Source: Mogibacterium sp. (lineage in GTDB: Bacteria; Bacillota; Clostridia; Peptostreptococcales; Anaerovoracaceae). From it: DNA of 64,000 nt. Where the stretch lies: positions 124,001 to 188,000 of the forward strand of contig JAFWHB010000032.1 in assembly GCA_017512145.1 (NCBI GenBank). The letters run 5' to 3'. The notes under the pieces are model-generated. The model had not been told where the DNA came from and searched no databases. It was given only the letters and a program-made list of their open reading frames with translations. The position numbers and the translations under genes were made by a program. Positions 43,599 through 45,407 of this stretch are shown one piece after another; position 1 is the first letter of the stretch; each line of letters opens with the position of its first letter.

Positions 43599-44027
43599 AT
43601 GCCACTGATACTTCTCGGATTACTGTTAATAATAGGAATCGTGCTATATTCGATAGTCAGATACATGAACAGCGATGAAGAAGACCACCGCTCTGTTCGC
43701 GAGCGTTATCCTCACGCTTTCAGGCCCCGCGAGAATAAGGGCCCGGATTCATCCGGAGAAGATCAGGATGACACAATACATGCTAAGGGTTATGTAGATA
43801 CAGACAACCTGCGCGGAGATATCGATTATATGTTCAGGAACATCAAAGAAGATATCAAAGACAAGGCTAAACAGCACGGCATCGACCTTGATAAGTTCGG
43901 CAGAGATCCTCTCAAGCACAACCCATTCAGTGAGAATAAGTCTTCTGAAGATGATGACGATGACGAGCCGATAATCTTCCCTACAGACAATGTTGAGGCC
44001 GAGAAGAACAAACGTAACATCCACTAG
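43599..44027 (+). CDS. Uncharacterised small membrane-anchored acidic protein
   Basis: I do not recognise a family. The 142 residues begin with one hydrophobic helix (LILLGLLLIIGIVLYSIV, ~3-20), with no signal-peptidase-like site, so it is probably a membrane anchor. The rest is soluble, highly charged and mostly predicted disordered, with an acidic run SSEDDDDDEP near 115-125 and a possible amphipathic helix around DIDYMFRNIKEDIKDKAKQH. The start has AAGGAATATAT before the ATG. It has its own putative promoter and a strong terminator. Codon use resembles its neighbours, so it looks like a real gene. Confidence 0.7.
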   Translation: MPLILLGLLLIIGIVLYSIVRYMNSDEEDHRSVRERYPHAFRPRENKGPDSSGEDQDDTIHAKGYVDTDNLRGDIDYMFRNIKEDIKDKAKQHGIDLDKFGRDPLKHNPFSENKSSEDDDDDEPIIFPTDNVEAEKNKRNIH

Positions 44028-44030
44028 AAA

Positions 44031-44052
44031 ACGGGGCGCCTGCCCCGTCTTT
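44031..44052. terminator. Bidirectional terminator
   Basis: ACGGGGC (44031-44037) pairs with GCCCCGT (44042-44048). CTTTAATT follows on the plus strand and TTTTC on the minus strand. It ends both the acidic protein gene and the convergent radical SAM cassette. Confidence 0.75.
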
Positions 44053-45067
44053 AATTGTCCTTATTATGGATACAGTACAGCGACCTGTACATATTGCCTC
44101 CGGTGAAATAATTATATGATCTGCAGCCTGCGGCACAGTATCTTCCGTGTTCACATGTTCTGCAGGTTCCTTCAAGAAGATCAGTTGTGAATTTCCTGTT
44201 ATATGAGAAAGCATCAGGATCCTCCCAGATGCTCCTAAGAGACCTTTGTCTCAGATTACCCTCGATGAAATAGTCATCATACATCGACTCACATCCTCTG
44301 ATATTGCCTATGCTGTCGATTCCGATGCTCTCCAGGCCGGCCTTGCAGCCTCTGTATACGGCTGTCCCGTTTCTGTTGCCTCTGAGATATCCCTCTGACT
44401 CACCGAAGTAACCAATATTATCTGCTATACCGATCCTGACAGGATCATCAAGATGCTTCTCAACGAAGTGTATTACTTCGGCAAAATCAAACCTGTAGTC
44501 CATTCGGAGATTAGCTGCATTACCCATTGGCGAGCATGCCTGAAGCTGCCATGCGAAGATGCCGCTGTCTTTAAATATCTCATACAATTCATCCAGACAC
44601 CGGACATTACCACTGTTAAGTGTTGTAATGACTGAGGTATTGATTCCGGCAGATGTGAGCCTTTCAAGAGCAGTCAGCGCCCGGTCGTAGCTGCCGGCCT
44701 GCCTCAGTCTGTCATGGACTTCCCTTGTACCATCAATTGAAACAGATACTGACTGCACATTTATCCGCCGGAGAGTGTCTATCAGCTCGTCCGTAAATAC
44801 AAATCCATTGGTAATTATGTTCAGTTTGATTCCAAGATCTGTCAGAGACTTTGCAACTATATCCCAGTCAGGACGCATAAAAACCTCGCCACCGATAAGT
44901 GATACTCTCCGGCAGCCAAGTTCAGCAAGCTGACTGCATACATCAAGGCATTCTTCCGTGGTCAGCTCGTCAGGTCTTGCAGGCCCGGCTGCAGATCCAC
45001 AGTGTCTGCAGTTAAAGCAGCAGGCAAGCGTTATCTCCCATACGCATGACCTGAGACTGTAAGTCAT
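44051..45067 (-). CDS. Radical SAM/SPASM peptide-modifying enzyme (putative)
   Basis: A 338-residue radical SAM protein. The cluster motif C-x3-C-x2-C is seen in LACCFNCRHCGSAAG (the first of the two adjacent cysteines, then Cys, then Cys), followed by the SAM-binding SLIGGEVFMRPDW. The C-terminal SPASM domain is complete: C-x12-G-x4-C (CKAGLESIGIDSIGNIRGC), then C-x2-C-x5-C-x3-C (CRTCEHGRYCAAGC) and a final Cys near the end, enough for two auxiliary clusters. The frame continues upstream, but the ATG at 45067 overlaps the stop of the small peptide gene (ATGA) and gives a family-like N-terminus. The enzyme probably modifies that peptide. The reaction is unknown. Confidence 0.85.
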   Translation of the reverse strand: MTYSLRSCVWEITLACCFNCRHCGSAAGPARPDELTTEECLDVCSQLAELGCRRVSLIGGEVFMRPDWDIVAKSLTDLGIKLNIITNGFVFTDELIDTLRRINVQSVSVSIDGTREVHDRLRQAGSYDRALTALERLTSAGINTSVITTLNSGNVRCLDELYEIFKDSGIFAWQLQACSPMGNAANLRMDYRFDFAEVIHFVEKHLDDPVRIGIADNIGYFGESEGYLRGNRNGTAVYRGCKAGLESIGIDSIGNIRGCESMYDDYFIEGNLRQRSLRSIWEDPDAFSYNRKFTTDLLEGTCRTCEHGRYCAAGCRSYNYFTGGNMYRSLYCIHNKDN

Positions 45068-45285
45068 TCTGCATTCTCGCCAATTTTCTTGACTAGCTTG
45101 GCGCCTTCTTTGATGACGCCGGCAGGACTTGTATCTTTGATTAAATATTCGTCCCACATGTCAGGCCCTGCATATACAGCTTCGATATCCGGACCATTAT
45201 ATACGTCTTCGATCTCAGGAATATCGTGCGCAGCGGTTGTGATAGTATCCTTGAAGGAATCCGGGTATGATTTTCTGTCAGCCAT
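45064..45285 (-). CDS. Candidate modified-peptide precursor with VYxGPD repeats
   Basis: A 73-residue acidic peptide without cysteine. A tandem nine-residue repeat lies in the middle: VYNGPDIEA directly followed by VYAGPDMWD (pattern V-Y-x-G-P-D-x-x-x). It is preceded by a leader-like segment (DSFKDTITTAAHDIPEIED) and followed by a lysine-rich tail (KEGAKLVKKIGENAE). A near-perfect AAAGGAGG stands five bases before the ATG, and its stop overlaps the radical SAM start. Small size, strong translation signals and coupling to a SPASM enzyme suggest a RiPP precursor. No transporter or protease gene is adjacent, and I do not recognise the precursor family. Confidence 0.65.
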   Translation of the reverse strand: MADRKSYPDSFKDTITTAAHDIPEIEDVYNGPDIEAVYAGPDMWDEYLIKDTSPAGVIKEGAKLVKKIGENAE

Positions 45286-45328
45286 ATGAGCCTCCTTTCA
45301 TAAGGATCAGAACTCTTATTACGGCTAA

Positions 45329-45358
45329 ATTATATCACAGATATTATTGGGAAAACAA
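45329..45358 (-). promoter_or_regulatory. Promoter of the peptide/radical SAM cassette
   Basis: Minus strand TTGTTT (45358-45353), 18-bp spacer, and consensus TATAAT (45334-45329) inside an extended TGATATAAT element. The -35 overlaps the T-run of the pnp terminator. Confidence 0.6.
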
Positions 45359-45386
45359 AAACAGCCCGCCTGGTTAAAGCGGGCCG
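45353..45386 (-). terminator. Intrinsic terminator of pnp
   Basis: Minus strand GCCCGC (45384-45379) pairs with GCGGGC (45369-45364), then TGTTTTTGTTTT follows. It lies ~25 bp after the pnp stop. Confidence 0.8.
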
Positions 45387-45407
45387 TTATCGGTGTTTGT
45401 TATCAGA

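Follow-up and report, generated by a model that had tools for sequence, protein, structure and literature searches.

A VYxGP motif beside a SPASM radical SAM enzyme in Clostridia: a candidate tyrosine-centred protein tag

A short repeat peptide encoded directly before a radical SAM enzyme raises the question of what the enzyme may do to the peptide, and whether the outcome would be a secreted natural product or something else. We analysed such a pair in a 64,000-nucleotide stretch of DNA from Mogibacterium sp., a gut-type bacterium; this stretch is here called the window. An earlier note on this DNA had described it as a minimal RiPP operon with a cysteine-free precursor of unrecognised family. 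We compared the pair with homologous loci, with curated enzyme families and with the known splicease systems.

Results

The peptide and enzyme genes form a two-gene unit

The genes for the 73-aa peptide and the 338-aa radical SAM/SPASM enzyme lie on the minus strand and overlap by ATGA, with the enzyme starting at 45067 and the peptide ending at 45064 (Table 1). The signals listed in the earlier note were found again: besides this overlap, they comprise a near-perfect ribosome binding site, AAGGAGG, 5 nt ahead of the peptide ATG, and an extended -10 element recognised by consensus match. The terminator hairpin of the pnp gene lies just upstream of this element, and the unit thus has a promoter region of its own. 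A terminator had also been claimed to follow the enzyme gene. A GC hairpin is indeed present, but it has only four T, and the terminator scan assigns a terminator to the opposite strand; termination at this hairpin is plausible. Positions 43599-44027, convergent with the enzyme gene, encode a 142-aa protein that has a membrane segment at its N-terminus and an acidic C-terminus; it bears no relation to the pair as far as we could see.

Table 1. Positions of the two-gene unit and its signals in the window
Feature	Position	Strand	Evidence
Putative substrate peptide, 73 aa, two VYxGPD tags (Y29, Y38)	45064..45285	-	ORF; homologous motif proteins beside enzyme at 16/16 readable loci
Tag copy 1, VYNGPD (residues 28-33)	45187..45204	-	IEDVYNGPD context recurs in L011 (PAEIEDVYNGPD)
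Tag copy 2, VYAGPD (residues 37-42)	45160..45177	-	Dominant form among 53 clade A sites
N-terminal element KSYPDSF, counterpart of the clade's KxYP element	45253..45273	-	Sequence comparison
Radical SAM/SPASM enzyme, 338 aa, without N-terminal RRE-sized domain	44051..45067	-	Pfam/NCBIfam, tree, predicted fold
Shine-Dalgarno AAGGAGG, 5 nt before peptide ATG	45291..45297	-	Sequence
Extended -10 promoter element TGATATAAT	45329..45337	-	Sequence; consensus match only
Terminator hairpin of upstream pnp gene	45360..45388	-	Terminator scan; separates pnp from two-gene unit
GC hairpin after enzyme gene, possible shared terminator	44031..44048	.	Four T only on - strand

The open reading frame confirms a 73-aa peptide with a tandem nine-residue repeat, VYNGPDIEA and VYAGPDMWD, which places the two tags nine residues apart. 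Among 200,000 shuffles of the peptide, two VYxGPD copies occurred in none and one copy in 26. Judged by its sequence here and at the homologous loci, the motif is not a product of chance. The peptide shows neither a signal sequence nor a lipobox by eye, and it (P0002) matched no NCBIfam family and nothing above the Pfam gathering cutoff. A pattern search of the genome to which the window belongs gave no other convincing tagged protein; the remaining matches, named by eye, were a ribosomal-protein-L13-like protein, a carbohydrate-enzyme-like protein and one unlikely frame.

The motif accompanies the enzyme at homologous loci

The enzyme belongs to a group of 18 homologues (clade A, the window's included) with 52-65% identity, some of them fragments. 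They were collected by similarity to the window enzyme, often from short contigs; all come from Clostridia, and the source of several is a named metagenome assembly of gut or rumen. Clade A is patchy: the first 350 genomes searched of the window's family gave two matches beyond the window's genome, and in two other families 5 of 9 and 6 of 16 genomes carry such an enzyme. IMG/VR gave no close relatives, and phage records yielded three matches only, at 24-25% identity. Neighbouring genes could be read at 16 of the 18 loci (L006 and L054 are cut by contig ends), and a motif gene adjoins the enzyme gene at every one of the 16. At 15 loci the motif gene precedes the enzyme gene and at one it follows (L020, seen in L083); three loci have a second, downstream motif gene (L069, L070, L086). 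Enzyme homologues without a peptide gene, which would speak against a pair, were found at none of the readable loci. This association strongly supports the substrate-enzyme pairing proposed earlier, and the motif next to a clade A enzyme is likely its target. The radical SAM gene at L009:7983-8504 has an in-frame gap in its middle and encodes 173 aa; the gap may be a genuine deletion or an artefact of assembly.

The clade A motif reads [V/L/I]Y[A/N/G][G/S/A/T]P. We counted 53 sites, with 7 look-alike matches left out and with Tyr and Pro fixed by the search pattern. Position -1 is Val (45) or Leu (5), with Ile, Thr and Ala in the remainder; position +1 is Ala (46), Asn (4) or Gly (3); position +2 is Gly (43), Ala (5), Ser (4) or Thr (1); and Asp or Glu is commonest at +4. 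Because Tyr and Pro are constant, as set by the pattern, and the other positions vary, Tyr would be the likely target, which agrees with its earlier listing among the plausible ones. In 16 sites of related precursors a Cys occupies position -2 (CVYAGPE), so that the description as cysteine-free holds for the window peptide and not for the family. Among 192 background genes, taken from the window and from related regions, matches outside the precursors were single chance occurrences in unrelated proteins. We discounted two matches, FYMPPE in the L010 kinase and YGVP in the core of the L009 hydrolase, since they belong to the folds of those proteins.

Most stand-alone clade A precursors have in common a [K/R]xYP element near the N-terminus (KKYPDIH, KRKYPDNF, KKNYPETF, KKYPRIF, KKYPGIF, KKYPKSR; KSYPDSF in the window), which is a possible recognition sequence. 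Basic amphipathic stretches (SKLKKIFGK, LLKRLLGGIFQKR, GIFRKK, IRRLFRKK) lie near one end of many tagged proteins (L010, L009, L011, L019, L021, L022, L052) and possibly serve in recognition or membrane contact.

The tag is carried by unrelated proteins

Stand-alone repeat proteins carry two tag copies in the window, five in L011 and seven in L022. Other repeat proteins end in a zinc ribbon (L019 with 10 copies, L023, L056), and copy numbers in the repeat proteins range from 1 to 10. At a locus from the window's own genus (L010), a Ser/Thr kinase bears the tag ILYASPD on its C-terminal tail, again with an ATGA overlap; the tagged kinase lies beside AAA ATPase and DUF2201 genes, and its best relative in the genome that contains the window lacks a tagged tail. 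An ADP-ribosylglycohydrolase in L009 bears a tail with four tag copies. In L007 the gene for a tail-less ADP-ribosylglycohydrolase lies two genes ahead of the pair formed by a 94-aa VYATPD protein and the enzyme. With kinase, hydrolase and zinc-ribbon carriers, VYxGPD resembles a tag for protein modification more than it does an ordinary antibiotic peptide.

The enzyme is related to TIGR04103 and TIGR03913

The enzyme has the radical SAM motif CxxxCxxC (C16, C20, C23) and seven SPASM cysteines conserved in the alignment (C241, C259, C302, C305, C311, C315, C332); PF04055 and PF13186 score above the Pfam cutoffs, and the full SPASM domain reported earlier is thus corroborated. The best curated models for the enzyme (P0001) are TIGR04103 and TIGR03913, both below cutoff (TIGR04103, 258 bits versus 725); TIGR04133 scores 146 bits versus a cutoff of 425. 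The earlier note's unrecognised precursor remains so in the libraries searched, and the enzyme lineage can be recognised through TIGR04103 and TIGR03913.

We placed the enzyme in a tree of 52 sequences, all fetched by similarity to it and with four outgroup rows only, so that the outer branches are thinly sampled. Clade A (support 100/99), a second Clostridial group, clade B (100/100), and a TIGR04103/TIGR03913 group (100/99) are united at 99/98, the branching order of the three having no firm support; a further group C is supported at 100/99. The mycofactocin maturase and the other outgroup enzymes fall outside the A/B/TIGR04103 group. W173-Q174-x-Q176, M181-G-N183 and G219-Y220 are common to A, B and TIGR04103/TIGR03913, mostly replaced in group C and for the most part missing in the remaining radical SAM enzymes of the comparison. 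A structure predicted from a five-sequence alignment (mean pLDDT 74.7, pTM 0.80) suggests a radical SAM fold that has no distinct domain at its N-terminus, with PqqE, SkfB and SuiB as the nearest solved folds.

Discussion

The best explanation, which we hold to be evenly balanced between right and wrong, is that a splicease-like, leader-independent enzyme acts at the Tyr of the VYxGP tag. The peptide would be the tagged substrate and the downstream gene would encode its dedicated radical SAM enzyme, which would recognise V-Y-(A/N/G)-G-P-(D/E) directly and need no leader-binding partner from another gene. Each tag copy would be acted on, with radical excision of a tyramine equivalent from Tyr-29 and Tyr-38 (-135.0757 Da per motif) and rejoining of the backbone. 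We propose tyramine excision because the enzyme is akin to PlpX-type spliceases. In favour of splicing are this kinship, the fact that the proven PlpXY tag (PMC10533398) has the form LYGLP, and the YAAP motif in clade B; splicing is weakened by Ala or Asn after Tyr, by a PlpY-like partner not having been found, and by the low family score. A cleaved and exported peptide would be a less likely product than a protein or tag that is modified and stays in the cytosol.

The strongest alternative, somewhat improbable in our estimate and yet a serious contender, is that the enzyme modifies the VYxGP Tyr by another radical reaction and the backbone is not excised. Candidates for such a reaction are a Tyr crosslink (C-C or ether), Tyr decarboxylation or desaturation, and epimerisation. 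Ala or Asn, not Gly, follows the Tyr, and SPASM enzymes catalyse many chemistries, with the mycofactocin maturase acting on a Val-adjacent Tyr (PMC8326336); in our tree, however, that maturase and the other outgroups lie outside the A/B/TIGR04103 group. The nearest folds likewise belong to enzymes that make C-C or thioether links, but the constant crosslink partners offered by the motif are limited to Pro and, mostly, Asp or Glu, and the likeness of the predicted fold to PqqE, SkfB and SuiB does not discriminate between reactions. Thioether formation as the common reaction was rejected, since most sites have no nearby Cys.

Improbable is a conventional RiPP pathway, in which the modified peptide would be freed from a leader and leave the cell as a small bioactive product. 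The clade A neighbourhoods that we read, several of them on short contigs, showed neither an exporter nor a leader peptidase, and the tags are fused to kinase, hydrolase and zinc-ribbon proteins; these two observations render the label of a minimal RiPP operon doubtful, while its core, a short precursor beside a maturase, stands. The two-gene layout itself would suit such a pathway, the KxYP element could be a leader, and in clade B some precursors have a GG leader and are accompanied by C39-type transporters. That the motif protein is an unmodified adaptor or regulator of the enzyme we consider very improbable: modification of the motif is predicted from sequence, but one to ten repeats, a constant Tyr and unrelated carriers are typical of substrates, not adaptors.

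Were splicing at the VYxGP Tyr correct, backbone beta-amino acid formation would extend to a new motif, XY[A/N]GP, and an enzyme acting, on present evidence, without a PlpY-like partner would make a simpler protein tag. Another reaction would represent a new modification of Tyr, with a substrate logic that the sequences already define. In either case, the tagged kinase and ADP-ribosylglycohydrolase suggest that signalling-type proteins of Clostridia are among the targets of radical SAM chemistry. A tentative extension, unlikely on balance, is that of a transferable cytosolic tag system that places an alpha-ketoamide in the backbone of signalling proteins, or modifies their Tyr in another new way, and does not yield a natural product; equally tentatively, the Ser/Thr kinase, the ADP-ribosylglycohydrolase and the zinc-ribbon proteins would be the signalling carriers, and the modification would be regulated or reactive. 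Our literature search found no YGPP or YGTP motif named together with radical SAM enzymes, and an earlier description is possible; a search on splicing with kinase-fused tags gave nothing relevant. Scott et al. 2022 reportedly described widespread ribosomal beta-amino acids and may cover some of these clades.

Comparison with known systems

TIGR04103, which we take to be the same family as IPR026482, is the best-scoring curated family for the window enzyme, and the WQxQ, MGN and GY residues occur in both. PlpX, a member of IPR026482, excises tyramine at Xaa-Tyr-Gly (PMC11002830). PlpXY splice tags have the form PIRPLYGLPI or PIRPGYGLPI, and ketoamide formation by PlpXY occurs without a leader (PMC10533398). 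A genuine TIGR04103 member, a Nostoc enzyme (L048, 853 bits), lies beside a Nif11 precursor ending in IALYGLPPELF, with a 71-aa protein in the PlpY position. The window system resembles these in its short Tyr-centred substrate motif (theirs LYGLPPE and PIRPLYGLPI). It differs in the enzyme score far below cutoff and in the partner: tblastn with the L048 partner, which could miss a diverged RRE, gave no convincing match to a PlpY-like gene in the window or in clade A or B loci. The window peptide, unlike PlpX substrates, has no Nif11 or nitrile hydratase leader. Whereas known splice sites are Xaa-Tyr-Gly, clade A has Ala or Asn after Tyr and Gly at +2, with Gly directly after Tyr in only 3 of 53 sites and the window tags reading VYNGPD and VYAGPD. 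Some clade A carriers, in contrast to those of PlpX systems, are cytosolic-type proteins.

The second-best curated family, the TIGR03913 GDL-motif (DUF1843 peptide) maturases, belongs to the same larger clade. Its peptides are also short, with Y[G/A/M] near the N-terminus (LYGGAM, PYGVAI, MYMATM, LYAAGI), but they have no Pro at +3 and occur as two or three tandem GDL/DUF1843 peptides, and the enzymes are about 470-520 aa long. Clade B (about 40% identity) forms a supported joint group with clade A and likewise has YxxP repeats, of the YGYP, YGVP/YGIP or YAAP type; one protein has seven YAAP repeats, and Ala after Tyr thus occurs in a related clade. Its enzymes differ in being mostly about 480-550 aa, Lys or Leu usually precedes the Tyr, and the motifs sit on chagasin-type (peptidase inhibitor) proteins or on peptides of exported type. 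Three clade B enzymes (L076:8345-9292, L077:7293-8240, L078:2536-3486) follow large repeat proteins with 10 KYGYP, 9 YG[V/I/A]P or 7 YAAP copies, respectively. The L077 protein has a Pfam chagasin (I42) domain and the L078 protein is similar at its N-terminus by eye; all three could be protease inhibitors bearing modified repeats. In the RiPP-like loci L073, L074 and L075, GG-leader peptides with repeated PLYGI/KYGV cores lie near the enzymes, together with bacteriocin-type C39 peptidase/transporter genes named from sequence by eye.

Group C comprises TIGR04133/TIGR04134 (rSAM_w_lipo) and Clostridial relatives. It is more distant (about 30% identity), its substrates are lipoproteins and its enzymes do not have the WQxQ/MGN residues; it resembles clade A in an adjacent substrate gene with a V/E/M-Y-G-P/T-P motif. 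Its lipoproteins carry VYGPPE[Y/W]F, VYGPP or YGTP beside TIGR04133-like enzymes, those of L015 and L016 matching TIGR04134. In Clostridia, small lipoprotein-like VYGPP-repeat proteins precede TIGR04133-like genes (L008, L032, L033, L037, L039, L041-L043, L046); the two tested, from L008 and L032, had no NCBIfam match. Within the VYGPPE[Y/W]F type, VYGPPEYFE closely matches VYAGPEYFE of clade A. On sequence comparison, the feature common to A, B, C and TIGR04103 loci is a Tyr-centred, YxxP-like motif encoded beside the enzyme gene.
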